This document shows positions 4,188-59,828 of a DNA stretch of 64,000 bases, in pieces (the stretch's first letter is position 1; every line of letters starts with the position of its first letter). The notes below the pieces were generated by a model. That model did no database searches, was not told where the DNA came from, and saw nothing but the letters and a program-made list of their open reading frames with translations. The position numbers were made by a program, and so were the translations under genes. Origin of the DNA: Floccularia luteovirens (lineage: Eukaryota > Basidiomycota > Agaricomycetes > Agaricales > Squamanitaceae); NCBI GenBank assembly GCA_009739215.1, contig VSJF01000003.1, positions 2,604,001 to 2,668,000 of the forward strand. Direction: 5' to 3'.

Positions 4188-5428
4188 AAATGGTCTGCTC
4201 TTTAAAAGGATGATGATTTAGATATGGTACATATTGTCTGTTGTGCAGAACTAATAGTTGTTTGTTGGTTATTTTTTGGTAATTGAAATCTTGTTTGTGA
4301 TTCTGCTTGAATATAGTGAGAATTCACTGCAGTATTCGGTGAATTGTCTGTTGCATTAGCAACGATTTCTCGTTTGATTGATTGTTGGCCAACAAAACTT
4401 GATGAACAGGTAGCCTTATCTATGAGTGTTGGTTGCGCCCCTATCAATTTTTTTTGCATCATTTGCAGAGCGTAGATATATATTTGTCATTTTTATAGGT
4501 ACGTTCTGTTAAAGAATTTAAGGGCACTTTGATGAGATAAGATTGATTATGAATGGGATCCCCAGGTTCTCTTATTTCAGCTTTAAACCCTCGGGATGAT
4601 GCGCCAGCAGAACACGGAGCTGGAAAGGGCGCGGTGGATTGACATTATCAACACGGTAACCAAATATAGGCGACGACAGTTGGGGAATAGGCTGGAGATA
4701 AGTGACAGGAGAGCGAGCGTCGGCAAAACAGCAGCTGGCGACGGCTATTTAGAGGACGTTCCGTGTTTGAAGTTGATAACACGTTCCGCGTTCCGTCGCC
4801 GAGGGAGCGGTGTTATAGTGGCATGGAAAAGGCACGCATGTAAATTGGCAAGTCAGGTGGCTTTGGCTGTCACAGATTACAAATATCACGTACGGCGATG
4901 GTAAGCTCGGTGGCGGGTAGACTTGTAGATATATCGTTGATGAAACTGTACAAATAATAATTAATAAATGTGGTAATTCACCTGTAGCAGTGTTGGTAAC
5001 TACTGGCAACATGCCACAGCATGGCGATGAAGTTGAGTAGTAAGAAAGCAGTGTGGAAAATGATGACGTCATACAGACAGCGCAACAGCACGTGTACCAG
5101 ACCCTTGATCGATCAGAGAATGTAAATCGTCGATCCCGAGTCACGCGCACTGCCTCGTGTGACGAGGTTGAGAGGGGAGGAGAGAGATTGAAGACGCAGA
5201 GTTGGATATGCATGCATTGCTGTAAAGGAGTTAGAGATGTTGAGTGGTAAAGGGACGAAAAAGAAGATGAAGAAGAGGTAAGAGATGAAGAGAACAATAG
5301 AGAAGACAAGGGTGAGAAGAGACAGGGCATTGTTCCCGAGGGGTAAGTAAGTGTGACCCTTGTGATGTGACTGATGAAAGGGTATAACAGAGCGGACGAC
5401 AGCGTCGGATTGGTATTGACCCATTCCC
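4188..5428. other. Non-coding flank, purine-rich
   Basis: It holds the second copy of the 55 bp repeat (4584-4636) and, from about 5160 to 5330, a strongly purine-rich plus strand (AGAG and GAAGA tracts). The long minus-strand open frame at 4749-5330 is low-complexity serine/leucine read from that tract and is probably not a gene. This stretch is the likely 5' region of the gene at 5429. Confidence 0.45.
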
Positions 5429-9400: not shown

Positions 9401-9792
9401 CCCTTATGGCGCATGAAGGGAGGGCCTCAAGGCAGCTGAAATGGGAAGATAAGTCACGGTGATATGGATACACAAAAGAAGGATAGCTGGAGGTGTCGGA
9501 TTTGCGATATAACGCTGAGTTGGGATTGAGATTGACGCCGACGGAAATATAGTGATCTCGGGTAATAAATGCAAAGCTGCCGTGGGTTTGCCGCGTGGAC
9601 TTACGAACGAAGTGTCATGCAAATCATATGTTCGACGCGTCTTCACGGCACATATTAATAATGCTATGGTGGGACTGCGTCATTCTTGCCAAGTCTGTCT
9701 TGCAGATCCAACAAGTTCTTTAAAAAGTCTCTTCTCGGTATACAACTGACATCTATTGGCATTTACCTCCTATTCTTGTATAATATCCACAA

Positions 9793-10742
9793 ATGCCTAC
9801 ACTTGCTGCCGTTAGAGCTGCAAATGCTGCACGGTCATTCCCTGTTTCCCCCGTAGCCTTGTTCGTTGGCGGAACTTCGGGAATTGGCCTTGCCATGGCA
9901 TCTGCACTCTCCCGATACACCGCTGGACAAGCACACATCGTCATCATTGGCCGTAACTCCACCGCCGCCCTTCAAGCACTTCCCACAGCACAATTTGTGC
10001 AATGCGATGCAACGCTGATGAAGAATGTCCGCGAGGCAACCAATTCCGTTCTCGAACGTTTCCCAAAAATAAACTACCTCGTATTGTCGCCTGGGTATAT
10101 GACTTTTTCTGGCCGGGATGAAACAGAGGAGGGTCTTGACAAGAAACTAGCGTTGCATTACTATGCACGATGGACATTCACCAAGGAGTTGACTCCTGCG
10201 TTACAGCGTGCCAAGGATGCTGGGGAACCAGCAAAGGTGTTTTCAGTCTTAGGTGCAGGGTTTGGAGGAGAAGTGGATTTGGATGATTTAGGACTGAAAA
10301 AGAACTATACGCTATCTCGGGCTGCTTTACAAGTGCCTACATATAATGACTTGATGATGGAGGTATGTTTCATATTCAAAAATGCTTCATGTTCATGTTC
10401 ATGTTCATAATCATAATAACACTGCAGGAATTTGCAACTCGAAACCCGGACTTGACGTTCATCCACGCCGCTCCGGGATTTGTACGCACTAATCTTCACT
10501 CATCATCCCCATCGCCTTTGTTGCGCTATTCCGCCCCTATCCTCAACTTCCTTACCTACCCATTGTCTGTTTCTCAGGATGATTGCGCTGAGCACATGTG
10601 GTATGGATTATTCAACAGTGACAAGGGTGCATTCAGAATTGGGGCGAAAGGTGAAGATATTGGACAGAAGAGATATTTTGGAAGTGCGGAGTCGAGACAA
10701 AAACTCTGGGAACATACAGTGGAAGCAACAAAAGCGTCATAA
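9793..10742 (+). CDS. SDR-like NAD(P)-binding protein, copy A
   Basis: Two exons, 9793-10362 and 10428-10742, give 294 residues with a 65 nt intron. Residues 21-32 end in GGTSGIG, the glycine-rich dinucleotide-binding turn of short-chain dehydrogenases, after a beta-strand (VALFV). A central LSPGY stands where most members have NNAG, and FSVLGAG fits the serine strand. The usual Tyr-x3-Lys site is not intact: residue 184 is Tyr in YNDLM, with Met where Lys is expected. It may act on an unusual substrate, bind cofactor without classical catalysis, or place its lysine elsewhere. The Rossmann fold is firm, the reaction is unknown. It is nearly identical to the copy at 15658. Confidence 0.8.
10388..10408 (+). 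repeat. Hexamer microsatellite in the SDR-A intron
   Basis: TTCATG is repeated about three times inside the intron. Copy B has a single degenerate unit at the same place, which explains its shorter 53 nt intron. Confidence 0.7.
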
Positions 10743-13564: not shown

Positions 13565-15657
13565 TTGGTTTAAATTTTTTTCATTATGGAGGAACCGGAT
13601 ATAAATTATGTAAGGGGATTATTGCTGTGTTTGCGGGATTTGAGATTTAGCAGTATAGTGGTACATTGCAAAGTAAATTAATATGCGGCACGTAAATCAC
13701 GAGCGTCCCATATTCTTTGCACGTTGGACTTTGACTATTTCCAAAAAAAAGTAAAAGAGCGGACATATTTCAAATCATATGGTAGTAATAATGTTTAATA
13801 TTGTCGCTGTACCCGGCACCTTTTTTACAGAATATGGAGTAGAGGGGAGGGTTATTCATATGTTGAAGGTTTCTGACATAGTAAATTGGCACAGTAGAAA
13901 CGACGTTGGGAGTTCCTGTCGACGGGTAGGTTACCCGGGCAAAGCAGGTAATAGGTGGAGTATGAATCTAAACCCCCATTCAAGGGAGATGAGGATGGAA
14001 AAGTCTGCAAGCGATTGAAAAAGAAAGAAACAGTTTATTTTATCCTTCCCATTCGTTTTCCCAAAGTTTAGAGACACCTCCCGCGATAACACCCATCATT
14101 GGGTTATATTTTAGAACCAGCCCCCCTCAGTTTCGCAGAGTTTGGGCCAGTGATGGCTGGGATTGGATCCGGATTTGCTACGTTGTGGACGTTTTGTGCG
14201 TGCACCACGTCATATGTGGGAATTGCGCTGCAAGTTAATGAACCTATAGTTTATGTCAGGTGAACAGGTTTATCGATGTATGATTGAAAGACTTACTACA
14301 CATAGCAATGATGATGATTACGGATATTGTGGATTGGAACTGCATCTTTTTCCTTCCCCGCTTTGGGACCCTAGAGGTACATTTCCTGCGTATGCGTGCT
14401 GTGAGTTATGTTTTTGTGATATATGGTTTGAGAGTGCTGGGGCGGGAAGGAGTATTAACAGAGCCTTCAACATCCCCGCTTGGTTAGCTCGGAATCGGGA
14501 CAGCCAAGATCGGATTAAACAAGGGTATGATATGTTCCTACATACATATCACCCTCCCACCACCATTAAACCAAGATGCAACAATACAATCAATCGTACG
14601 GTCACATCTGGTTAGAGGGGAGAGTAGGAAGAATGAAGAAAACATTATGACGTTACCAATCAATGTTGTGCGTTATTAAAAAGAAGAAACGATGAATGTC
14701 TGAAGAGAAAGAGAGGAGCATTACTGCTGTGTCAAAGTCAAGGGGATGTCGGCGTCCTTGAAACGAAGGGCGCGACGGCCCTAACGGGGTAAGAACTACA
14801 TAGAAAAAATGAACTTGGGTTCAAAGTTGCGGGATTGCTCGTGTACTTACATGGCTTTACGGTTGCGAGGAGTTTTTTGGTGAAGCATCTTTAAACTTAA
14901 GTATCGAATTTGAGGGAAAGGGAAAAAGAGAACTAATCGGAAACCTTGAACATGAAAGTTTAAATTGATAAGTATACAAGCGCGTGACTTGCTTAAGTAT
15001 AAGTACTGTGGTCATGCAATCTTGACGCTGTACAATATAAATGACTTTGCGGCTTTAATTAGCGTTTGATAACCAGTTATTTGGGGTCACACGACTATAA
15101 GTATGACGGATGTGCGCATTTCTGAAGAGTCTGTACGACAACTATTCAATTGAATTTGGGCGATTGAATATCTTCATCAATATAAGCACGGAACATCTGA
15201 CAACAATTCTGATTCATGCCTAACGGGTAAAAAGGAAAGATATGTACTCACCAGCACCACTCGAGGTTCAAACGTTCAGGTTTTCATGATTTTCTTCCGA
15301 GTAAATTTCACATGGAAAGATTCCTTTATGGATCTTTGAACGCTTTGGAGATGAGAGTATAATGACACGGAATACAAGGTTGCAAAGTCTGATTTTTATG
15401 CCGGATAAGGGGAATTAGGCAAAACGCCGGAGCCGGATGATCTGCAAAGCTGCCGTGGAATTACGAACAAAGTGTCATGCAAATCATGTGTTCGACGCGT
15501 CGTCCTCACGGCACACAACGTCATGACTGTCGTTACTTGCAGCTATGCCGTCTGGACTCTTGCAAAAAGTCTGAATCAGTCCAACATTTTGTTTAAAGAG
15601 TCAGATTTTTCGGTATGCAACTGACACCTACTCTCCTATTCTCATATTATATCTACA

Positions 15658-16595
15658 ATGCCTACACTTGTTGCAGTTCGAGCTGCAAATGCTGCACGGT
15701 CATTCCCTCTTCCCCCAGTAGCCCTGTTCGTTGGAGGGACTTCGGGAATAGGCCTTGCCATGGCATCTGCACTCTCCCGATACACTGCTGGACAAGCACA
15801 CATCGTCATCATTGGCCGTAACTCCGCCGCCGCCCTTGAAGCACTTCCCACAGCCGAATTTGTCCAATGCGACGCAACACTGATGAAGAATGTCCGCGAG
15901 GCAACCAATTCCGTTCTCGAACGTTTCCCAAAAATAAACTACCTCGTATTGTCACCTGGGTATATGACATTTTCTGGCCGGGATGAAACAGAGGAGGGTC
16001 TCGACAAGAAACTAGCGTTGCATTACTATGCACGATGGACATTCACCAAGGAGTTGACTCCTGCGTTACAGCGTGCTAAGGATGCTGGGGAACCAGCAAA
16101 GGTGTTTTCAGTCTTAGGTGCAGGGTTTGGGGGAGAAGTGGATTTGGATGATTTAGGGCTGAAAAAGAACTATACACTATCTCGGGCTGCTTTACAGGTG
16201 CCTACATATAATGACTTGATGATGGAGGTATGTTTCATATTCAAAAACGCTTCATGTTCATCTTCATAATAACAACACAGGAATTTGCAACTCGAAACCC
16301 AGATTTGACGTTTATCCATGCCGGTCCAGGATTCGTACGCACTAATCTTCTCTCATCATCCCAATCACCTCTGTTGCGTTATTCTGCCCCTATCCTCAAA
16401 TTCCTCACCTACCCATTGTCGGTCTCTCAGGATGAGTGCGCTGAGCACTTGTGGTATGGACTGTTTAACAGTGATAAAGGTGCATTTAGGATTGGGGCGA
16501 ATGGTGAAGATATCGGACAAAAGAGGTACTTTGGAAGTGCGGAGTCGAGACAAAAACTTTGGGAACATACAGTGGAAGCAACAAAGGTGTCATAA
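15658..16595 (+). CDS. SDR-like NAD(P)-binding protein, copy B
   Basis: Two exons, 15658-16227 and 16281-16595, give 294 residues, the same length as copy A. Only scattered substitutions separate the two (for example Ala/Thr near residue 57 and His/Leu near 208). GGTSGIG at 26-32 and Tyr184 in YNDLM are kept, again without the Lys of the Tyr-x3-Lys motif. Shared loss of that residue in two otherwise intact copies means it predates the duplication and is unlikely to be random decay. Upstream sequence differs from copy A, so the two may be regulated differently. Confidence 0.8.
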
Positions 16596-20225: not shown

Positions 20226-20687
20226 CTAGGCATTGGCGTTGAAAGGTGAGCAACTAGCGACAAATGCGCCATCTACAAAGTAATCAGTATTGTGTTATTG
20301 GCTAGAATATAGATAAAAGTAGTTTTGGAACATACTACTGTAGTTCTTTCCAGTGCAGCAAGCAGTTTGTTGGGAACTAGACACATTCGGTGAACATTCC
20401 GTACGAATAACTTAATCAATAGGAATTTACCAGCTGTTTCCGGCACCTCCGGCACCAGAACCTGCAGCGCATGTAACGCCCCATTGGCCGCTAACTGAAG
20501 AAAAGGCGCCAACAGCGCTGAAGAATGACATAAGCTGCTCCTTGTTGAATGAATCGCCATTTTGGATGGAATTACAGCAGTAAATGTTGTTCGCATTGCA
20601 GCTAGAGACAACGTTACTCTTTGCTGGGGCAGAAGCAACCACAAGGGCGAGAGTCGAGACGATGAAGATGGCAGCCTTCGAGAACAT
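20226..20687 (-). CDS. Class I hydrophobin H5
   Basis: Exons 20431-20687, 20339-20376 and 20226-20272 give 113 residues with a signal peptide (MFSKAAIFIVSTLALVVASA) and the full eight-cysteine pattern. It is the most divergent intact member: the loop before cysteine 73 reads FSSVSGQWGVTC and the tail ends in NANA. The same NA ending occurs in the broken H2. It has no inverted partner in the window and sits next to the transposon at the hinge of the hydrophobin palindrome. Confidence 0.9.
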
Positions 20688-21064
20688 TGTGAAAAACGAT
20701 TGAAGTTGAGCTTGGCAAAAAGAGAAATTTAGAGGGAATAAGTAAAGGAGAGAAGATGTTTACTGGACTCTCAAAGTAGCGCCCATCGCTTTTTATCCTA
20801 CGAATATGCATATGCCATCGGGTTGGGCTATGTATATGACCCTAGGGGGTAGAAGTCCGATCTGTTACTCGTTGGGTGGTAGTTCGGATCCGTTTGGGGT
20901 GATTTCTTGAAACGAACAGTAATGGAGCAGAACCAAAGCTTCAATGACGTTGAAAACCGTGGTGACAATGTGTTTTTAAGCGGCTATCCCCTTTTTGACA
21001 ATTATCTTACTTAATGGGGAAGAGGTTTTATACCGTTATTGACGGCTTCTTTTGATGTATAACA
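20688..21064. other. H5 promoter side and transposon target
   Basis: No gene. The stretch holds the H5 upstream region (an ATAAAAAG near 20790 on minus) and ends with ATAACA at 21059-21064, the left target-site copy of the transposon. Confidence 0.5.
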
Positions 21065-21179
21065 TACGGCTGGCGAGAAGTCTCAGCTTCGTTTTGATGT
21101 TGTTACTCACACTTTCCCTTTTCGGGTCACCGTGACACTACCGTGTGACAACAACTCTGCGCTATCATCGTGGCATCTA
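21065..21179 (+). repeat. Left terminal inverted repeat, 115 bp
   Basis: It begins TACGGCTGGCGAG and ends TGGCATCTA. Every base equals the reverse complement of 25716-25830. The transposase start codon lies 10 bp inside it. Confidence 0.93.
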
Positions 21180-21188
21180 TTCAACACA

Positions 21189-22791
21189 ATGCCCAAATCT
21201 TCAGGCAGTAACCAGTGGGGCGAGAAAAACTGTACGTGAAAAGTTTCCTTATACATGCTATTGTACTTATTATGCAATGTAGACCCTTCCGATGAGGAGC
21301 TTCAAGTGGCCTTCAATCAATATGCAAAGGAAAACAATGGCTCCGGTCTCACTGCAGAACAACAACTTGCAAGATTGGAGCGTGAATTCGGCCTATACAT
21401 TAAGTTTGTATTCCTGTGCATGGTGTTGCTATTGATGTTAACTTCTCCCTCAGACGAGCAGGGCTATATTGGTTGCGCAAAAGACTAGGGATAAAAAGCA
21501 TTCGAAAAAATCAAGAAACATCTTTGCAAGATACCATCCAGTTAGTTGTTGACATCAAGGCTGATGATACAGCTGGGAAATGGGGTGTTGCACAGGTTCG
21601 ACAACGCCTTGCGAATACGGGCATCCTGTTGAAGCGGTATGTTAGTTTGCTACGATGTTTTCATTAAACTTTCTTATATTGTGTTAGCGATGATTTGCGA
21701 CAGATTCTCCATGACAATTTTGAACCTGAATTCAATCTACGCCTTTGTTTTTCTAACCGTAACATGATCAAGCGTGTCCCACTCGATTGCCTGGGACCCT
21801 GGCATCAGTTGCACTCTGATGGGCATGAGAAGCTTGCAGAACAAGCACTCCGAATGGGTCATGGTCTCTCACTTCCACTCTATGCATTTAAAGATGAATT
21901 CTCATCTTTTGTACCCTATTTGCGCGTTCTTCCTAATGTCCGCACATCAAGAGCTATTGGACATGCTTTTCTAGACTTCGTTGAACTATATAAATGTAAG
22001 TACTTTATCTCCAGCTTCTATGATACTTGTTAATATAGTGCAAATCAGGTATTCCAATTCAACTTACAACAGATAAAGGTTCTGAAATTTCAGACATGAT
22101 CCGCTGTCATGAAACACTCCGGTAAGCCAACTTAAATCATTATTTGTATTTTCACTTTATTAATCGAGAATTTAGGCTTCATGCTGCCCCCGATTTCATG
22201 GTTGAAAAATGGCCAACTGCTATTCAAGTTCAAAGCAAACATAACACCCCAATTGAGTCATTTTGGAGGTGGAAACGTCAAGGTGAAGGTCATAGCATCA
22301 AGGAAGTGCTCTTCACTGGAAAAGAGGCGGGTATACTCAATCCAAATAACTGGTTGCATGTGTATGTTACTATATTCTAGTTTCTTCTGGTTCTTTACTG
22401 AGATCTTTTTAGTCAGGTTTTTAAGTGGCTGTGGCCACCTCTCGTACAGCAGCGTTTGGATGAATTCCGTGAATATTGGAATAATCATTCTCTGAAGCGG
22501 CAAAAAGAGAAATTGTTGCCAAGTGGAATGCCACCTCGCCATGTCTGGATGGTTCCAGAAAATGCACGCGCTAATGCACGAGACTGTTCAATAACAGTCA
22601 GTCTTGATCTTGTTAAACAACTTCGTGAAGAACTAGGTGGTATGGAAGGTCGTGCTGAAGTACTTAATTTTGTTGATGATGAATTTCGGGCACAAGCAGA
22701 TAATGCCTTAGCACAGTTGGGATTTCCGATTATCACACTTTTAAATGCATGGGATATTTTCGAAGCTATAGTAGAGATTCTATCACTATAA
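21189..22791 (+). CDS. Integrase-like DDE transposase
   Basis: Seven exons, 21189-21231, 21283-21403, 21454-21636, 21688-21995, 22049-22121, 22176-22361 and 22413-22791, give 430 residues with introns of 50-54 nt. The catalytic core has an RNase H-like, retroviral-integrase type layout: Asp160 in LHSDGHEKL, Asp227 in LTTDKGSE and Glu270 in NTPIESFWRW, spacing D-66-D-42-E. It presumably cuts and joins the terminal repeats in the nucleus. The N-terminal part (residues 20-115) is helical and basic and may bind the repeats. No lesion is seen. The related basidiomycete proteins are usually annotated only as integrase core domain proteins. Confidence 0.85.
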
Positions 22792-22924
22792 TAACGTAGT
22801 CAGTAGTACATTGAAATATGAAGTTTTTTTGGTGCTTGCATAATCTATCAAACTCAAACACACATAAAATCTGAATTTTCCATCGGCTGAGACCTTCAGC
22901 AGAACTCTTGCCACCTCAACAATC

Positions 22925-25443
22925 ATGTCGCAGTCTCAGAGAAACATTCAACCTTGTGGTGGACCCGATAATGATGCAAATGGATGTGGAACAGTCTTTC
23001 CACGTATGCAAATGGATGCAATCCTCTGTCAGCTTTGTAAAAAGCTGAATAAGAATAGCATTACTGATGCTGAGATTGCTTTTATCAAGGTTCGCACTCT
23101 GTCACCTGTCCATTTACTATGTTGAGCTCACAAATGGAATCTAAAGGAAAAATTCAAACAATGTTTCGAATGTGGGCTTAGTGGAACCAATGTTAGCAAC
23201 CCTTGTGGAACCTGTAAAAGACTTGGTACGTACTATTCAATTATGATATTTGCATCAGGCTCAGATGTAATCAACTATTTATAATATTAGCACATCAAGA
23301 GAATGGCGTAATAGACGAACCTACTTTAGCAGGGCAAACTCGCCGAAAAGAACTTTTGGACTGCCGTTTGAACCGGCAAGTTGGCCCAGCAACACCAGCC
23401 ACAGAGCTTGAGAGCCTGCGAGGGCGAAATATATCAGCACCTACATTTGCAGTTGGCTATGAATGTCGAAGAAGTAATGCACCAAATTCAGTTGATCGGA
23501 TTCTAGGAAAATGCTGCCAGCCATTTGCTGAGTCTATGACACTCTTAGGCAAGTTCAAGTTCTACAATTTAGTATATAAATGATCAACTTACTTCTTATC
23601 TGCAGAACTGAAAGAATATATTGTGCGAAGCATTAATCCACGATGGACTGAAACTCATGCTGCAGACTTGAAACCGTATGTCAAAACCATCCAATTTTAT
23701 AATTTCAAATCTCACTTTTCACATAAAATAGAAGTGAGACTGAACTGCGCATGTGCAAAAATCTAGCCTTGCCACTTGGGGATGAAACTCTAACATTGCG
23801 TCAGTTTTACAATAAGTATAATCAACATGGATTACGGGACATGTACCTTGTTCCTCCCTCAGGAATGTCAAAGGGAAACCGAGGATCATCATTTTCAGTT
23901 GAGCTATTTATCCATGTGGACCGGGTAAGCATATTTCACTTCTAAGTTTCAGGAATATAAGTTTAATATTATTGAACCGAAGTTTATGCAAAGAACTGGC
24001 GAAGGGGAAGATGATGAGTCATCCATGCTAGAATCAACTATGAGTATCAGTAATAGTAACGGAAAACGCAAGCGTCAAGTAACCTCTTCTAAACGTGGGA
24101 CCCGAACATCAATGTCAGGTAAAGGTGGCCGAAGCAGTAACAAACGATTTTGCAGCAGTAAGTTTATGAGTTGTGACTGCATTGCCTATATACTCATTCC
24201 GACATTAATCTCTAAATAGATAGAGAGAACTTCACACCACTTACAAGTACTTTTGAGCGAGATAGAGGATTGGAATCTATAGCTGTGACGCAACCACAGC
24301 CTCAAGATCTGAAATTGGTGAAATTCACACGTCTCTCATGTGAAATCAACCATACCAATGGCACACCTATCTTTTCGGATGCATCTACAGTAGAATATGG
24401 GTATATTGACCAGATACCCATAGTTCTGTCATCTTCGGATCGCGGAAAGACAAAAGATGTGTTTGCAGTCAGTGTTACTGTTATATAATCACAACGTTAC
24501 TCACCCAGAGACATAGTTTGTAATGGATGACAAATCCTATGTTGCGAAGAAACTAGTCAACATTGGAAAGGGACAAGGCATTGGGATTATACTTAAAGCC
24601 TCCTTTGAATGCCTCAAGAATGACCTAATCCGTCTGAAGCGAATGGAATACTTCTCTACTTTATTTACTAAAAAAGCAGAGGTTAAAGGTGTAGAGATAG
24701 CAGGTAAGCTTTACATTATGTTTCCTGTATCGTTATCATTAACTCCATAATTTTCTTCTAGACTTCCAAATCTCTGATGGATTCATCATAAAAGTTCTTG
24801 ATGAACCCGAGGCTGCTGCTGTTAATGATGAAGAAGTGAGGGATGCCAATCCTTGCAATTCTGAAGATGAATTGGAGGCACCAGTCAGCATAGCAACACG
24901 ACGCAAACACAATGAATTACATAACGTTACTGCAGTTTATCTTGTTGAACCTCGTCGTCTCTCATCTGCTGTCAACAAATACTCTGGAACTTTTGGAATG
25001 CGAAATTGTTCAGATAAACTGGGCGCAACTATAATGGCATTTAGCCATTTTGTCATTGAAAGTTCAGCTTGTGAATACATGTTTGCAGATATTCAAGGTA
25101 ATTTCGGTACTAGTAGTGCAATTTAGGTCATACTAAAAAGATTTATTAGGCTCATTGGACCGTAATCCTAATGGTAGTCATGAGACTATCATGACACTTT
25201 TTGATCCAATGACACATACACCACTTGGGTAAGCGATTGATACTTTCTACTGAGTTAACTTGCTAATCAAACTTGTTATGACCTAGTAAATCTGGTCTTG
25301 GTGACCATGGACTAGCAGGATTCAGAGATTTCATTGAACAACACAAATGTTCAGCAGTCTGCAGTAAACTCCGCCATTACTCATTAAATGAAATCAATAA
25401 ACAACTCGAAAAACTTGACAACGACATAAACAACACTGCCTAG
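22925..25443 (+). CDS. Alpha-type protein kinase carried by the transposon
   Basis: Eleven exons (22925-23089, 23147-23225, 23291-23548, 23606-23675, 23732-23924, 23953-24157, 24220-24467, 24517-24703, 24762-25097, 25150-25228, 25287-25443) give 658 residues. The N-terminus has paired cysteines (CQLC, CFECG, CGTC) like a zinc-binding domain; a basic Ser-rich linker follows. The C-terminal half matches the MHCK/EF2-kinase fold: Lys417 in SYVAKK for ATP, GATIMAFSHF at 556-565, FADIQG near 576-581, LFDPMTHTP, GKSGLGDHG, and a final Cys-x3-Cys for zinc. Intron 3 uses a GC donor with the consensus GGCAAGT. Intron 5 would be only 28 nt. The substrate is unknown; alpha-kinases phosphorylate Ser/Thr. 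Confidence 0.87.
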
Positions 25444-25715
25444 ATGTCACATTTTCCACACACATATCCTCAGCACTTTCGCACTGCTATGTCAGTGTGT
25501 TTTCTATTGCTATACGCTCATTTTCTGCTCATAGTTTAGTTTTTTCGTACAGTATTCCGTACAGTATTCTACTTTTTACATCATTTAGTTCCTTGATTTG
25601 ACAAAAAATTCTGAATTCTCTATACTACCCATTTGATATGTCCCCTACTATTACTTTATCCTAACATATCATGAAATCTAATGTTTTCATCGCTACCGCG
25701 CAAAGAATTGGGCAT

Positions 25716-25830
25716 TAGATGCCACGATGATAGCGCAGAGTTGTTGTCACACGGTAGTGTCACGGTGACCCGAAAAGGGAAAGTGTGAGTAACAACATCA
25801 AAACGAAGCTGAGACTTCTCGCCAGCCGTA
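25716..25830 (-). repeat. Right terminal inverted repeat, 115 bp
   Basis: Exact reverse complement of 21065-21179, followed by the second ATAACA target copy at 25831-25836. Confidence 0.93.
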
Positions 25831-25889
25831 ATAACAGCTCTTCAACGTTCAACGTCAACTCCGATAACTTACAACAAACAGACTTTGGC

Positions 25890-26272: not shown

Positions 26273-26728
26273 ATGCACTCCAAAGTTGCCATCTTTGTTG
26301 CCTCTACCTTTGCTCTCATGGCTGCTGCCGCTCCACAGAATGGCAACATTATTGGTAGCTGCAGTCAAGGCAGCATCAGCTGCTGCACCTCATATCAATA
26401 TGCATCGTCATACGAGAATGACTTCCTCTCCACCTATTTCGGTGATGCATTCAGTGGAGGAGGTGACCTTGGTCAAATCGGAATTGGCTGTGTTGCCGGA
26501 ACTGGTGGGGGCACTGCTGGAAATAGTTGGTAAATAATCATGAATTTCGTTATGATATAAAATGGTACTCAATGTATATATTTTCAGCACTCAACAAACT
26601 GCCTGCTGCACGAGCAATAGCATCAGTATGGATTTGCAACGTCCTTATTATATTCCAAATAATGCTAACAATTGTCATTTACAGATGGCATTATGGCTGC
26701 TGGTTGCACTCCGGTCAATGTCAATTAA
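26273..26728 (+). CDS. Class I hydrophobin H6
   Basis: Exons 26273-26529, 26588-26625 and 26685-26728 give 112 residues. It is the inverted partner of H4, with the same one-codon-shorter last exon and the glycine-rich loop (CVAGTGGGTAGNS). Signal peptide and eight cysteines are intact. The start at 26273 was chosen over the in-frame upstream ATG at 26204 because the latter lies only a few bases past the TATA box and would spoil the signal peptide. Confidence 0.92.
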
Positions 26729-49212: not shown

Positions 49213-52200
49213 CTATGATATAAGTACCTCACTATATACTACATTTTGTGTAATAGGTTCTATTACATCATCTGGAAGAAGAACTTTAATACTTCGACTT
49301 GAAGTGGCTCTTGATAGAGCAACATAGAGTTGTCCATGAGCAAATACGGGAATGCGTAAGTCAAGGCCAACATATCGTACTGACTGGCCCTGAGCCTTGT
49401 TAATGCTCAGAGCAAATGCCAGTCGTACGGGAAACTGTCGTCTCTTGAACTGGAAAGTCACATCTCCCGATGCTGTGGGGATTAATGAAATTCGTGGGAT
49501 AAGCGCTATCTCACCATCATGTTCTCCCCCAATCAAACGCACCTCCAAAACCCTATTGCGCATTTGTGTTATTATCATGCGAGTGCCATTGCACAGCCCT
49601 CGTGATGGTGCCAGGTTTCGAAGAAGAATGACTGGACAGCCAATCTTCAAGTTAAGTTCGCCCGGTGGAAGACTTGATGAATGAACTGATCGAAGGAATT
49701 CATTCGGGATAGGTTCATCATGCATAGGATCAGCTCCTGCTTCTCGTATGATTTCATCTGCGCTGACATACTGTTTGACATCACCTGACATACATTCTAA
49801 GATTTGCTGATTTATGTCACCGACGTCTGCATTGCGAGGTGCAAGGATCATGCGGTTCAAGAAGTAGTCGGGAGGCGGAGGTGGCAATGAGTTGATACCT
49901 GGGTAGATTGAGTTGATGAGAGAGTCCAAGCCATGGATTCGCATGTGCGTTGGTAAGTGAATTTTGTTATTATTGTCTGTATTTCGACCGTGACCTACAT
50001 CAAGAAGCCAATGTGAAAACTCTTGAGCATCTGTGTCACCACTGTTGACTCGCATATTCTGATTTAGATGAAGTACTTGAACAGTTTCCCAAAGAACAGA
50101 ACGCTGCAGGGTAGCGTTGACAATATCCTCGCGAGATCCTCTTGGAACGACAGGCAAGGTTTGAAGGAAATCACCACCAAGTATGACGGTGATACCTCCA
50201 AATGATTGATTGTTGCCAAATATATCTTGTAGGGTACGATCCACAGCTTCCACAGCATAGCGGTGTTGGGCACCCACCTCATCCCAGATAATCGCCTTTG
50301 TAACACGTAGGAGTTCTGCCCTGGGACTATTTTTAGGAATGCTACAGCTCGAGCGTTCATTAAGTCCATCGATTGGGATTTTGAATGTAGAATGTGCTGT
50401 TCGACCACCACGAATCAGGAGAGAAGAGATGCCGGAGGAAGAGACACAAAGGATAATTTTTCCCTCACTTCGTAGCTTTGCACAGATAGTGTTGTAGACA
50501 AACGTCTTTCCAGTCCCTCCAGGACCGTTTAGAAAGAAAACTCTTGCTTCGTTGTTTTCAATTGAGGATATAATACGATTATATGCGTTCCGCTGATCAG
50601 GATTCAGGCAAGGAAGTCGAACTTCAAGATTAGCTTGCTCCGTGTCGCGATTATAATTTAGTTGCTCGGCAATGAGAGAGTTGACTTCAAGTCTGCTCCA
50701 GTTACGTTGTGGTAGTGGCATTGATGGCCATTCAGCCAGCAAACGTCCTGAATCACGGAGAATATTATCGAGGAGGTGAAGGCCATAGTCATAAACATCG
50801 TCGTCAGGAGGATTTTGGATTCCCATGGTGCATAGGCGGTGGGCAAGATCATCACATATATGGTGCTTGAATTCATTCCAAAGCAAATCGGGCTGTGAGG
50901 GCTCACCAAAAAGCAGTAAAGACACAAAAAGATGACGGAGACATGTTCCAGTCTGCATTTCAGATGCCTCTTGAAGACAAAGACGCCACTCTCCATCATC
51001 CTGAAGCAAGCCACGCGCAAGGCAGGCAGAATGAAATGTGGGGAAAGGATTGTCGTACCCAGAAACCCTTCGAAGATCTACAAAAGACGTAGCGCCTTTC
51101 ACAACAGTAAGTAGTAGGCGGAGGTAGTAAATTTCTCCAGATGTAGGCTTGATGAAGTACATCCTTCCCAAAGCAAAACCTCGTTGTCGAAGAACCCATT
51201 TTCGTTCGTTCTGATTGTATCGGAAGTGTTGCGGAAACTCCTGATAAGAGTATTTGCGGGCTTCTTCCCCAAGCAGACCTTGATTGCCATTGGCCTCGAA
51301 CCATGCGGTAAGAGTAGTGCGTTGATTAGCACCATGCTGAAGTACAGCTTCCAGATCGTGGTTTGGGTTGAACATTACCATGTGATGATTTTCGAGGTGG
51401 ACTTGAAGTCGAACAACATTTGGGACTTGCTCATGCATGTTGAAGTGCAGGAGACGCCAGACAGCGTCTGGTGCAGAAATGTAACGTCCTTCAATCCATC
51501 GTTTGACCTCGTCCTTCTGCGTAACCTCCAGAGCACCTCGATCGTGGCCCTTACAAACATATTTGAAAGCGTATTTGAACGTTCCAAGAGTGACTGCGCA
51601 TTCCATATTTATGTGGCAGTCGAAGTCGGCACAAAGAAAAGGAGGGTATGGCACGATCCAGCGATTATCAACTGGTCTGCCATTCACTTCATAAGCTCTT
51701 CCGTCATTTGGCCGGAAATACAAAGGATAGCCATGGTGGTCCATGGTTGTAAATTCTTGGAACGCCTTTGGAAACCCTTTCGAACAGATTTTACCACCTC
51801 GCCCATCATCAACCATGCATGGCGAGTGTGGATTTTCGACACCGCATGGCCCATGAACCATGCATTTCTTGACCGTCTCAAAGAGAAGCGGTTGCAGGAC
51901 AGGATCGGGCCATCGCGCCCAAATGCAAGAGTCAATGGCTTCTGTAGTCAGGAGCTTGTCAGGCTCCTGAAGAAACACTAAACAGTGAATATGTGGTAGA
52001 CCGCGTTTTTGGAATTCTATGGTATAGACATAAGCAACAGCAGTGCCAAAAACACCATGCTTGTAAATGTAGTCTACAACTGCATTCTTTTTCATCTCAA
52101 AAACTCGTGCCACCAAATCTGGACGGTGGTATGCCGCCTGGCCGGGAAGAAGCTCTCTCTCGATCTCCGCCCATCGAGGGTTTGTTGTCATTGTGAGGAA

Positions 52201-54807
52201 GATGTCAACTTTTCGGAAGTATCGAGCGAGTGCCATGGAATCTTGGTAACACTGCCCCATGTTCCGAGGTCCACCAATATACGAAGATGGTAGAAAGATT
52301 CGTTGACCAATGTCATTCAGACTGAAGTTATCGGGGTCTTGAATTGCAGCATCCTCAAGGTTATTGAATCGAGCTGCTCTAAATAAAGGCTGGTTCAGCT
52401 GTATCCACCGAAGCCTCTGTTGGTCCACTGATGCAAACATGTCGACAATGTAGCGAGTAAAAAGGCGGCCACCACGTAAGAGTGCGTTAAACTCCTGCGG
52501 ACGGTAATGAATCCGGTAAGCAACGTAGCGTGAGAGGGTGAGGCGTCTGTTGGTTCCTTCATTGGAGTTGTCAACTTCAAAGCCCCGGTCTTGCCTAAGT
52601 TGGCGTTGTTGCTGGCGGCCCTGTAGACGGCTGTCTCTCTGATCGTCAGTTTCGGAAAGCGTCAGCTCGGGATACCATCCATTCTCTCCAAAAGGGAAAA
52701 GAATGGGGTACTGCAGGGGGACATAGGCTGGATGAAGGTCACTTATCCGATACAGTGGCCCATCACGGTGCCGAAGAACTATATCGCGAGGTTCCGTTGA
52801 TCCTGTGCCAGGTAAAATTACCGCAACCTCGTCTGCAGTTGGGAGGTTGTATCTTCGGCGATCTAGTCCAGGACTGAGGCGAAGTCGTATATCAACATCG
52901 TTAGACGTATCGTAGTTCCGAAGAATTTCATACGCATGTTGATAAATGGGAACATATTGGTGGTGGGTTGTCAACATATTCTGCAAGGATTGCATAATTT
53001 GGCGATCTAAATCGCCATTTTGCTGCATACGGACATCCAGAGCAGCACGCGGCTCATAAACATATAGTTGAGCATAGCGAGGTAGACGATTTTCAGAAGG
53101 AGTAAGAGCACCGGTTTGGTGATATAGTTCTCCAGATATACGGAAAACCGGAGGTCCTCGTCCCCGGTTGACTGAATGGTCTTCTTGAATTCCTAAAGAT
53201 GTGAAGGAAAACGCTCGGTTGTACTTCCAAATTTCATCACGGAATTTGACAGCATCACGGTCGTCCGAACTGAGAAGGCGTCGAAGAGGCTCAGGCACCT
53301 CTCCAAGTAATGGGAGGCGCACTTTTCCTGACATGCAACAGGTTCCGAATTTCGGTGAACGCATCGAACTACCAGAGAGTTTCTCATCCATCCAATGAAG
53401 CGCCCCACAGTATGGATATGAGACATTCATCCGTCCAAGGTCATGGCGTTCAGCAGGTTCCACATAAGGTCGACGGGCCGCACGGAAGAGCTCACGGCTG
53501 CGCCTTCGTTGGTGCTGCTGCTGTATGCTCTCAGGTTGGTCCAATGGAGGCCGGTTGTCAGCGGCAGATGCTGCTACATGTGTCTTGAATAGAACATTGT
53601 GATAAATATAAAAGGCTTACACATACCTCCATTATTTAGTGACTGCTGTGTAGCCGGGGGTGTTGGAAGTGCTGATGCATCTACACCTCTGTTTGACTGA
53701 GCCACTTGTATGTCTGAGAATGGCTGCCGCGTGGGCTGAGGTGTAGGAGCCAGAGTTACGTCTGGTAGTGCATCCCTCCTGTATCTCTTGTGGTTAGATA
53801 TTCCAGTACCTCTCAAATTAGTCGGGAGACTCACAAAACAGAAGTTGTCCGTTGCCTTGCCTCTCGTTCGCGTTCTCGTCGTCTCTGTTGGGCTACGGAC
53901 CTTCGATTTGGCAGTTGCTGTGTAGCGGGGGGTGTTTGAGATGCTGGTGCACCAAAACCTTCGCTCAGCTGAGCGTCTTGTCTGGCTATGGATTGGTGTT
54001 GAGTAGATAGACGTGTACGAGCTAGAGTTGTATCTAGCGGTGCGTCTATCCTGTGTCTGATTGTGGTTAGATGTTCCAGTATCTCTCAAATTAGTTACAG
54101 AGACTCACAAAACAGAAGGCATCTGTTGCCTTGCCTCTTGTTCGCGTTCTCGTCGTCTCTGTTGTGCTGCAGACCTTTGAGAATGAGCTAGCTGCCGTAT
54201 GGAGGGGTTTACCGATACGCTGTTGTTCAGTGGTCCCGGTTCTGATGGAGCAGGGGAAAGTGGAAGATTTGGAAAACGTGAGGGTAGGAGTACCGAGCGA
54301 GAACCATGCCTCTCCCCAGCTTGGCATTCGTGCTGAACAAAATATGACAACGTGATAATGTGACAATGTCAAAATTTAAAATTCGTACCTGTCTTACAGT
54401 AAGTTGCCTCGAATCAAATAACCAGCGTTGCTGGTTTTCATCCTGTACTGTGTATGGTTGACGCCGCCGCCGAGGTGAATTCTGCAGGTCATAGTTGCGA
54501 GTTGTCCGGCTTGAAGCTCGAGCATTTGACCGCATATGTTCGACATGGCTAGCCACATCCATTGGTACCTCGGGTGTGGCCACTGGAAGGTACTGTTGAG
54601 GCCTTTCATCGATTTGCCGGATACTGAAATGGCAGGCTTGACAAACTGTCTGTTGCGTTTGTTCAGGCGTCCTAGGGCAGTATTCTGACCTGTGAAGTAG
54701 TACACAATTAGTAGCTTTGGAGCATCCCACAGAAGAATTGTACGCACATTTCGAATGCAAGGCATGGGATGCGAAGGTAGATGCATTGATTCAGGAAGGA
54801 TAGAATC
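49213..54807 (-). CDS. Helitron Rep/helicase (RepHel)
   Basis: The main exon is 49213-53573, over 1450 codons, with upstream exons 53627-53778, 53835-54050, 54109-54332, 54389-54689 and probably 54748-54807; the true start lies further upstream and is not resolved. The HUH nuclease has LPHIHCLVF (about residue 520 of the main exon) and the tyrosine pair in FKYAFKYVCK (about 660). The SF1 PIF1-like helicase has Walker A GPGGTGKT (about 1010), WDEVGAQ, GGDFLQTLPVV and the late motif YVALSRATS. An N-terminal cysteine cluster (CQAC and CP near 54650) may bind zinc. It nicks and unwinds DNA for rolling-circle transposition. No internal stop is seen. Confidence 0.9.
53627..54332 (-). repeat. Repeated exon module in the RepHel N-terminus
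   Basis: Exons 53835-54050 and 54109-54332 end with the same module (AQQRRRERE.EARQ, then SVL), and exons 53627-53778 and 53835-54050 share TPPATQQ. All three junctions keep the same phase, so the exons look tandemly duplicated. Confidence 0.65.
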
Positions 54808-55124: not shown

Positions 55125-58100
55125 TTATGAACTCATCGTGTCTGTGGAACTTTCTTCGATGCGTAAAATTTCTAGCTTGCCTGAATCCTTCCCCACAACA
55201 TAATAATTGCCCCACCGCGCTATGCATTGCGGGTTTCCCTGGTCTATCCAACAAATCCTCTTCCGAGTTCTATTCTCTTCACGTACAATCCATCCATCGT
55301 TGAATAAACGCATCCTCTGATCAGTTTCTGTTCTCCACCTGTACCACTTGAGCTCGACTTGCTCAACTTGCTTTGGCGCTTGGTTTTGCTCTTGCTCGAT
55401 TTGCTGTCGCTTTTGTTCGATTTGCCGTTGCTTTTGTATGAATGTGTCCCTTTGTTGCCGGTTCCTGTTTGGGGACGTGGAAAGCCGACTACTGTGATTT
55501 CCTATAGCTCGCGCGAGATACTCATATTCTTGCTTGAGCATGTTGAGTTGTGAATTCCACTCCTCCCATCTGTATATCTTTTCCTCACCGTCCTTGTCAC
55601 GTTTGACATACAACAGCGTGCTGTTATGCGAGAACTCTATATCTGAAAGCTGGGCCCAATCGCCCGTGATGTCAATACGACACGAATCTCTGCCTTCCAT
55701 CGTGTCGAACACACAAAGATTTCCATTTCCACTTGTACCCGCAATCCAGCGTCCGTCGGAACACCATGTGATTCTCGTAATAGTGTTTATTTTCCACAGC
55801 AAAGTAGGTTCATTTTTTGAGATATCCCATATGCGAGTTCCGTCAGAGTAAGCGACCGCAATCTTCCGCGCGTCGGGGGAGAATGCACTATTCCCAGAGA
55901 TATCTCCCGGAATAGTGTACAATAGTGATGCAGAGTTGAGAGACCAGACACTGACTACTTCGGAAGACACCGCAGCTACTCGTGAGCCATCTGAGGAGAT
56001 GGCCACGAAATGTATGCGTCTGATATGTGGTGATGGCGATGGAGCGGATGACGCGACCAGTGGTCCCAAGGAAGACAAGTCCCACAAACGGATTGTGTTA
56101 TCTGACGTCAGGAGGCGACGATCATCATTAGGAGAGAATGATGCGTTGTTATGATGAAAGGAGCCTTGGATGGAACCAAGTGAATTCCAGGATGTCGTGT
56201 TAAAGAAGTGGATCCTATCATCAGCCGTCGACAAAGCAAGAGTGAGACCATTCTGGGATATAGCGATGCCCTCGACTTCTAGTTCGACGTTTTTGGTAGC
56301 TACGGAGCGTTTGGTCGATTCGGGATCCCATAAGTGGATCGCACGGTCAGATCGATCATAAAAGGCAACCTGCGAGTCGTTGTGTAGAAACACAGCTGCC
56401 TCCACAGAGAATCCATACAGTTCCTTCAGAATCTGTTCGTTGGCCGACTCAACATCCCATATCCGAAGAGTTTTTGCTTCGTAGCATACTGTACGCCTCG
56501 AATCCTTTGAAATCGCCAACATCCTTTCTAGAGGAACCGTTCTTCTCCTTTTCATCTCTTCACCAATCGTAATGTCCCATACTTGCATCCCTCCTCCGAC
56601 TCCGTCAACACCAATAAAAAGCTGCGAACCGACTTGACTCCACTCTATAGCACACACCGTGCCTAGGAAATACTCCGTATGTACCTGCGCTCCAGACGTC
56701 GCATTCCAGACACGAATTGAGAAATCTTCCGAACCAGAAGCAATCCACTCCCCATCTGGAGCCCATGCAACACATCGGACACACTCTGTATGCCCCGTTA
56801 AGGTCCGCTTCGATGATCCGATACTTGCATCCCATATACACACGTCCCCATTTGATGACCCGGACGCAATTAACCTCCCATTAGGTGAAAACATTGCACG
56901 ACAATTTCTCACATCCGTTATGATCGTGTGGAGGCAATCACCCCATGCTGAATCTCGTGGTGTTATTGAGTTTACTTTGGTATGGATTGCTGTATTGCCA
57001 GAATTATTATAGCGGGCGGTGAGTACAGATGACGGTGCCAGAGGGAGTCCAGATATATACAGGTGTTCAGGACATTCCTTGATAGGTGCGTAACACCGTA
57101 GAACTAGTCGGTATGTGTCATCGATCAATTGAACAATTTCGTCTTTGTCCCCGTCTTGGATGTGACCCTTGCGACAATACTTCAGTTTCTCTGATCTCAC
57201 TTCAACGAACCAAGTACACACCTTGCACCATGAAAGTGCCGCAAGCATAGCCGGAACAGCAACATCAAGCTGGTTCATATAGCTGAGCACCTCCACCCAT
57301 ACTAGTAGCTTCGTACGCACAAACTCTGTCACTGCATACAGGATGTCCCGATTTGGATTGTCGATTTTTGATAGGTGTGTTGTCCAGTGAATACATGAGT
57401 ACCATAAATTTGGCCGAATATGTGTCTTGACAGCATGTTGCAGGTCTGGAATATCTGATTTCGTCATTGTGGGATCATTGAGCTCGCAGATGTTCCTTTT
57501 TAGAGGGCATCTCTCAGTCATCACCTTCAGACAGTCCAATGCCAATCGTTGGTGGTGTATAGAAGGTTCGATGTAGAAATTGGAATCGGTACAGCGCTCA
57601 TTATCAACAAGGAATTGTGTGAAGCTTGCATGCAGCATTCTGATCTCGACGCCGTTGTTGTTTGGCGTCAGGATGATTGAATTAAGTTGGCTTAGAATAT
57701 CCCGGATAAATCGCATCTCGACGCCGACCAAATCTACCAGGCCATTTACTGATATCTGGTTCTGAAGCAGAGCGAGACTGCCAAGGACAATACGGATATA
57801 CTTCTGCGTATCCGGAATGTTGGAGAAGTGATCAAGTGCATTATTTAGTACAGTGAGATATAACTTGTCCAGACCCTTCAGGCTGTATGCTACACCAGAT
57901 GGATTACCAGATAAGATGGCATTAAGGACGTGACGAGCGTGACTGGGATAGTCATCCAGGAATTTGAAGACGATGTAAGCATAAATGAATAATCCGGCAG
58001 AAACATTGGTGAGGTCCTCGATAACATTGGGGAAGGTTTCGTGTATCGCCTTCCAGCAGCTGAGACTCTTGAGTTTTACGTTGAAAAAAAGCTTGATGTC

Positions 58101-59828
58101 TCCATCGACGATTTCTCTTTTTACTTCATGTAATCTGTATGGTTTCGATACTTGGCGAAGCTTTTCCGTGTTTAATGCATTTTCGATCTTCATCTCTGGT
58201 CTGGTGGTCACAAGCACGCGTACAGGGAATGGGACTTTGGGGAGCTGTTCCATGAAGAGGAAAAGAAGTCGGGTAACCTCGCCCTGGGCTGCTGTAGTGC
58301 ACTCATCGAGTGCATCAAAAACAAGTATAATTGGGTGGTGTGATGCCTCGACTTTCCTGAGTGGTTCGATCACCAGATATTCGAGGTCCACTTGAAGCTG
58401 TTCCCCTTGTTTTCCTTTCCGATTGTACTCTCGAGCAGCCTTTGCAATGTGGGAATATAGGCTGGTCTGATTGTGTGCCAATTGGTATGCGATTGTTTTC
58501 AACACGTATGTTGTTGTGTTAAAATCACTGGCGCCTTCGACAAAGAAAAATGAGGCACCAAGTGCCCCTTTCTTCTCCAGTCTATGGGCAATTTCATATG
58601 CGATGGTAGATTTTCCGGTGCCAGCCCCTCCACTTAGAACGTATATGAAAGAACTGTCATTAGGTGTCTGTTGCCGGAGACACCATTCAGTGATTTCTTT
58701 GAGCAATTCGGTTCGGGTGCCATCCAGTGTTCCCGATTTTGTTGGGTTCGATGCCGAAGAGTAGGCGGCGTTCACATGTGGTAGTTTGTTAAGTGCCTTT
58801 TCATCGACTGCAGAGTAATCAGTCGGTCAACAGTTCTGATAGCCACAGAGAGAAGAACTTACGCTTTTGCTGTTGTTGTTTATGCTCACGTTCTACACGT
58901 TCTCGCTCTAGTTGTTGGTTGCGTCGTTCTACTCGCTCCCGTTCTTCACGTTCTTGCTCTAGTTGTTGTTTACGTTCTTGTTTTTTACGCTCCCGTTCTG
59001 CACGTTCTGCACTTTCTTGCTCTTGCCGTTGCTGACGATCTTGTTCTGCATGTTCTGAGCGTTCTCGCTCTTGTTGTTGTCCAAGTTTTAATTCCTATGA
59101 TGATTTTACATTAAAACCATTCACCAGCAACATAGAAGATTCAGACCTTGATATCATCCACAATCCCATTGATAAGCATTTCGATAGTGATTGAACCCTG
59201 TGCCTATGTCATACACATTGCAGAGCAGTCGGTTGATATCTATGGAGGATAATCATACCTGGAACCGCTCTATTGCCTCATTAATTCCTGATTTGATTCC
59301 TGATAACGTTTCTGAATTCTTTTTGTAGAGAAGTAATCCGAGGCATCCTGTTTCAAGCTTCGTCATATCATTCATCAGATTCCTCAGATCCCTAGTCGTC
59401 AAGTTATATGCAAAGTACATGTTAATGAAGACAAAATCTCACTGTTCGAGGGTGGTCATCCTCTTCTTCAGTTCAGGTGAATCTTTTAAACGAGTCCGTG
59501 TTTGATCATTGGTTCCAGCAGACTTGGCCATTTCTGCTGTCTCCTTGATTATCAATGCGAGTGCCTCTATTCTTTGTGCTACCTCTGTCCGTGTCTTTTT
59601 ATTGCCTTCAGCGACCTGATTAACAAAATCATTTGATCGTACAAAGAAATAAAGTTATTATAGACGTACTAAAATTGCTTCAATAAGTTCAGACAATACT
59701 GAGGCAACATTAGACAACCCAGGAACAGGAACCAGGGCGAGTGGCCCCTTTGCTATATTCAGAATGTCCTTCGCCACAGCGAGGATGTCAGTGATAGTGA
59801 TGCGTTGACCTGTTTTCGGTGAGGACAT
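55125..59828 (-). CDS. NLR-type protein: helical N-domain, coiled coil, NACHT, WD40
   Basis: Exons on minus: 59670-59828, 59443-59615, 59259-59391, 59164-59205 (its 3' junction is uncertain), 58863-59094 and 55125-58807, about 1473 residues. Residues 1-170 are helical (DILNIAKGPLALVPVPGL start) and resemble the MLKL-like four-helix N-domain of basidiomycete NLRs. Residues 170-245 form a Glu/Arg/Gln coiled coil. The NACHT ATPase has Walker A GGAGTGKST (306-314) and Walker B LVFDALDEC (409-417). From about 870 to 1290 run degenerate WD40 repeats (IASGSEDFSIRVWN is the clearest), then a Gln-rich helix. Such proteins are thought to sense non-self or stress and trigger cell death. The WD40 repeats are not highly alike, so recent repeat shuffling is not evident. 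Confidence 0.88.

Follow-up and report, generated by a model that had tools for sequence, protein, structure and literature searches.

The locus studied here raises the question of why a DNA transposon should carry a gene for an alpha-type protein kinase, and of what such a kinase would do for the element that carries it. We know of no characterised case of a selected protein kinase inside a cut-and-paste DNA transposon.

Structure and copies of the element

Within the window, by which we mean the whole 64,000-nucleotide stretch of Floccularia luteovirens DNA that was analysed, a two-gene DNA transposon of 4,766 bp occupies positions 21065-25830. Its terminal inverted repeats of 115 nt are 100% complementary to each other, the left one (21065-21179, + strand) starting with TACGG and the right one (25716-25830, - strand) ending in CCGTA, and they are bordered by two copies of a 6-bp target site duplication, ATAACA (21059-21064 and 25831-25836). 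A transposase gene and an alpha-kinase gene both lie on the + strand, with 133 bp between them. An earlier note on this DNA had described a complete transposon carrying an alpha-kinase, and the perfect repeats, the duplication and the shared strand of the two genes bear this description out.

A search of the genome (27.0 Mb in 22 contigs) revealed six copies of the element. The 6-bp duplication is perfect in all six and different in sequence at each, and comparison of the 1-kb flanks showed no mutual similarity; together these observations exclude chance, and they also rule out segmental duplication as the source of the copies. The ends of every copy fit the pattern TAYGG..CCRTA, with one TATGG end in copy L013. 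The four other copies of undisrupted length are 99.8-99.9% identical to the window copy over their full length, a near-identity which suggests that the element moved recently. Compared with all five other copies, the window copy differs at four positions, three of which change an amino acid.

Whether further copies would also hold the kinase had been raised in the earlier note, and we found both genes in six of six, with both frames open in four according to the draft kinase model. The kinase frame is broken in the remaining two: copy L009 has a frameshift in the kinase together with a stop in the transposase, and copy L013 has a 381-bp insertion in its kinase gene. The L013 insertion lies in kinase exon 5 and consists of a 376-bp TGTTG..CAACA stretch plus a 5-bp AGTAT duplication, resembling a solo LTR. 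Contig C14 additionally holds an internally deleted derivative of 162 bp (L015:4286-4447), found as a single copy. It has related termini inside a perfect duplication (GACGTC), which suggests that it was moved by transposase supplied from elsewhere. On contig C18 we observed an isolated element end (L022, about 4882-4974) that is 83% identical to an end of the sister element on contig C19 described below; this relic has no transposase or kinase match in the surrounding 9.9 kb.

On either side of the window element lies a small frame with a signal-like start, the two being divergent. The frame at 20427-20687 (- strand) is hydrophobin-like, with a score of 22.9 bits (E 1.4e-4) just under the cut-off of 23, and the frame at 26274-26531 (+ strand) has a similar layout and no Pfam match. 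Elsewhere in the window, two near-duplicate frames lie about 6 kb apart on the + strand (9784-10407 and 15625-16266), the first of which matches short-chain dehydrogenases. An apparently intact Helitron replicase gene lies at 49216-53616 (- strand), an open frame of about 1,466 aa that matches the Helitron_like_N and PIF1 helicase domains, and a further open frame of about 1,232 aa (55128-58826, - strand) has an NPHP3_N domain followed by WD40 repeats, which we take to resemble fungal NLR-type incompatibility genes.

The transposase and its place among known systems

On the basis of a splice model, Pfam and relatives, the transposase gene (21189-22791, + strand) encodes a DDE transposase of 430 aa in seven predicted exons (21189-21231, 21283-21403, 21454-21636, 21688-21995, 22049-22121, 22176-22361 and 22413-22791). 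A 425-aa draft with a provisional start matched the Pfam entry rva_4, 'Integrase core domain' (E 1.7e-12), in agreement with the earlier description of the enzyme as integrase-type, and an integrase-core fold was predicted for its relative P0009 from Hygrophoropsis aurantiaca. Comparison of the DDE positions in 66 relatives pointed to D160, D227 and E270 as the predicted catalytic residues. The protein is of the DDD/E integrase type, lacks an HHCC domain and has its first catalytic D within 100-300 residues of the N-terminus; integrase-type catalysis is predicted from sequence and models.

The accessible text of PMC10045372 describes IS3EU/GingerRoot elements as having TA..TA ends, 6-bp duplications and an integrase-type core without HHCC, with the first catalytic D 100-300 residues in. 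Since the window element agrees with this in its ends, its 6-bp duplication, its lack of HHCC and the placement of its first catalytic D, it appears to fit the IS3EU superfamily. Unlike the window element, the IS3EU/GingerRoot elements in that text come with no mention of a kinase, the comparison being with the published description.

A closer likeness is found in the TET+ IS3EU elements of rust fungi and Tuber (Kojima 2025, PMC12730594). In the part of that source available, every TET+ IS3EU family is stated to carry a transposase gene and an alpha-kinase gene in opposite orientation, with a TET/JBP gene between them, and the rust families have TAYGG..CCRTA ends, inverted repeats of >30 bp and 6-bp duplications. 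These ends, repeats and duplications and the pairing of transposase with alpha-kinase are all common to the window element, which differs in having no TET/JBP gene in its 133-bp gap, in carrying both genes on the same strand and in its Agaricomycete host. The earlier note had not recognised a kinase inside a DDE element as an established system; as far as the available text of PMC12730594 goes, the combination is already in print, and the window element is a compact, TET-less, same-strand variant of it. According to the same text, KDZ and other fungal DNA transposons that carry TET/JBP genes likewise hold a gene whose enzyme is believed to benefit the element, but they belong to other transposase groups, with 8-bp duplications in Zisupton and 7-bp duplications in Kyakuja, and their extra gene is a dioxygenase. 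Among the literature matches listed, none described a function of the kinase in such elements beyond the statements in PMC12730594.

The alpha-kinase gene

The kinase gene (22925-25443, + strand) was modelled from predicted splice sites and its PF02816 match, with 11 predicted exons (22925-23089, 23147-23225, 23291-23548, 23606-23675, 23732-23924, 23983-24157, 24220-24467, 24517-24703, 24762-25097, 25150-25228 and 25287-25443) and a predicted GC donor at the end of exon 3. After two exon borders had been set from relatives, the protein came to 648 aa. The match to Alpha_kinase PF02816 covers residues 398-622 (E 4.8e-22; 79.4 bits against a curated cut-off of 21.3), so that the open alpha-kinase of the earlier note stands, with its length revised from 658 residues. 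The bulk of the catalytic domain is encoded by exons 8-11, from residue 397 (24517-25443, + strand), and contains K, E, H, D, Q, D and H-x-C-x3-C motifs, the catalytic and zinc motifs of alpha-kinases.

Upstream of this domain lies an N-terminal region (22955-23215, + strand) with eight cysteines (C11, C21, C35, C38, C61, C64, C75 and C78) that is predicted to bind zinc. All eight are present in four of seven aligned kinase relatives and seven of them in two that miss a stretch; the relative P0001, with a gene model that begins later, has none. In a structure model of a kinase relative, of low overall confidence (mean pLDDT 56.7) and with the cysteine region not resolved, we found an alpha-kinase fold and a ubiquitin-like middle domain. 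We predict that the element's own kinase has an active alpha-kinase fold, binds zinc through its N-terminal cysteines and contains a ubiquitin-like domain. It shares the alpha-kinase domain, predicted fold and catalytic motifs with TRPM7/ChaK, MHCK A, eEF2K and ALPK1, at 14-17% identity over the relative's model, and differs from them in being transposon-borne; the eight-cysteine and predicted ubiquitin-like regions are additional to those of alpha-kinases of known structure.

Both genes are under purifying selection

Contig C19 carries a sister element of 4,669 bp that is 73.9% identical to the window element over aligned bases. It has the same gene order and orientation, with both genes intact (429 aa for the transposase and 637 aa for the kinase); TCTGGA borders it on both sides, and one end has five additional bases. 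Between the two elements, synonymous divergence was similar for transposase and kinase whether estimated by NG86 (dS 0.97 and 0.91, respectively) or by YN00 (0.90 and 0.97), indicating a similar divergence time for the two genes. The dN/dS ratio was 0.074 for the transposase (NG86, 95% bootstrap 0.047-0.108; YN00 0.080) and 0.174 for the kinase (NG86, 95% bootstrap 0.13-0.225; YN00 0.167), and both genes are under purifying selection. Divided along its length, the kinase gave ratios of 0.12 (first 82 residues), 0.17 (middle) and 0.19 (remainder). Introns of the two elements are 63-67% identical and exons 77-83%. In a rough neutral simulation of the kinase, in which the whole intron-level divergence was placed on one copy, 1,000 runs gave a mean of 23 stops and a minimum of 11, compared with none observed. 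The kinase ratio is about twice that of the transposase, which may simply reflect weaker constraint.

Linkage of kinase and transposase

A scan of the genome with PF02816 identified nine loci, namely the six copies, the C19 sister, C22:893502 and C2:820184. The match at C22:893502 has a distant, old transposase (23-30% identity) about 3 kb upstream of it on the same strand, and the fragment at C2:820184 has no transposase within the 10 kb examined. Kinase loci found in or beside this kind of transposase thus number eight of nine, and eight of nine transposase loci found have a kinase nearby, the exception being a fragment at C2:16465; both counts are lower bounds, as the scans read exon by exon. 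Read in this way, a genome scan with the transposase's own Pfam family gave no matches at all. As to a kinase orthologue outside any repeats, the possibility raised in the earlier note, the nine PF02816 matches (seven in elements, one beside the old transposase and one fragment) include no alpha-kinase at a clearly repeat-free or clear host locus.

The two genes appear to be linked in other genera as well. The kinase P0001 and the transposase P0009 of Hygrophoropsis aurantiaca each come from an 8,052-bp contig, which we take to be the same one, and in Hohenbuehelia grisea the two genes have adjacent locus tags (HGRIS_006717 and HGRIS_006718). In Mycena maculata, the gene model P0119 joins kinase parts and a transposase in reversed order. 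Across four linked pairs, ordering by transposase identity gives the same ranking as ordering by kinase identity (Pearson 0.994, from six non-independent values). Our searches found 184 transposase relatives and at least eight kinase relatives, the latter from a search that scored only the candidates with the most shared words; given these numbers, many related elements may lack the kinase.

Mutation pattern among the copies

Relative to the majority base at each position, the six copies have 27 point changes, of which 24 are C:G to T:A. L013 holds 17 of these 24 and hence most of the excess, and 13 of its 17 fall in CpG, which makes up only 260 of the 1,906 C and G sites. This pattern is the one expected of deaminated methylcytosine, pointing to probable methylation of the copies.

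A proposed role for the kinase

Movement of the element can be predicted from the transposase fold and the duplications: after binding to the 115-bp ends, the transposase would excise the element and reinsert it with a 6-bp stagger. As for the kinase, we think it probable that in this two-gene IS3EU-type transposon it is a helper kept by selection, one whose phosphorylation of a nuclear protein would allow the element to move or to evade silencing. That its function benefits the element is what we infer from the selection on it, its matching divergence and the lack of a detected host copy; its action in the nucleus and its substrate belong to the proposal. As the target we lean towards a host silencing or chromatin protein and not the transposase itself, for three reasons: the kinase is the faster-evolving of the two genes, most changes among the copies are C:G to T:A, and the rust relatives pair the kinase with a TET/JBP gene thought to oppose methylation. 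The main rival, which we consider unlikely, is that the kinase phosphorylates its own transposase, or the complex of transposase and DNA, and thereby controls how fast or when transposition occurs. The two genes lie together on one strand in all six copies and in the C19 sister, 133 bp apart in the window copy, their synonymous divergence matches, and the putative zinc-binding N-terminus and predicted ubiquitin-like domain could serve as docking modules. However, the opposite orientation of the two genes around TET in TET+ IS3EU, as given in the available text of PMC12730594, and the reversed order in P0119 indicate that a fixed operon-like link is not general, and the twofold higher dN/dS of the kinase also speaks against control of its own transposase.

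Two further explanations deny the kinase a role for the element. Capture of TET/JBP genes by fungal transposons is documented (PMC12730594, available text) and the kinase frame is broken in two of six copies, as might be expected of a captured host gene that travels as a passenger without any role. We hold this already disfavoured explanation to be very improbable, since a dN/dS of 0.17 (0.13-0.225) at a synonymous divergence of about 0.9 per site indicates a selected gene rather than a decaying passenger, and since the C19 sister retains an intact 637-aa kinase, apparently linked pairs occur in other genera and the PF02816 scan of the genome contained no alpha-kinase at a clear host locus. 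Selection on sequence is in itself silent on who benefits, and the kinase could in principle serve the host, for example in signalling, with the transposon as a mere vehicle. This we find scarcely credible, as the copies are near-identical and sit at dispersed sites, no fixed single-copy kinase locus was found in the same scan, and the synonymous divergence of the kinase is in line with that of the transposase.

Implications

Extending the helper role beyond this genome is more tentative. It is possible, if somewhat doubtful, that fungal IS3EU elements, with or without TET, have since ancient times had a second core gene, the alpha-kinase with eight cysteines and a ubiquitin-like domain, and that this protein acts as an anti-silencing kinase on chromatin or silencing proteins. 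Alpha-kinase expansions in fungi such as rusts would then consist largely of transposon genes, not of host genes for signalling or effectors. The accessible text of PMC4469406 describes the alpha-kinases of rusts as highly expanded, and in that of PMC4150398 one is among the wheat stem rust genes under diversifying selection. Such rust alpha-kinase genes may partly be transposon genes, which would be a warning for annotation.

Taken together, the near-identical open copies, the diverged intact sister and the short defective derivative make the system testable. In addition, finding a selected kinase in a DNA transposon of the cut-and-paste type suggests that phosphorylation in the host may be a target of such elements.
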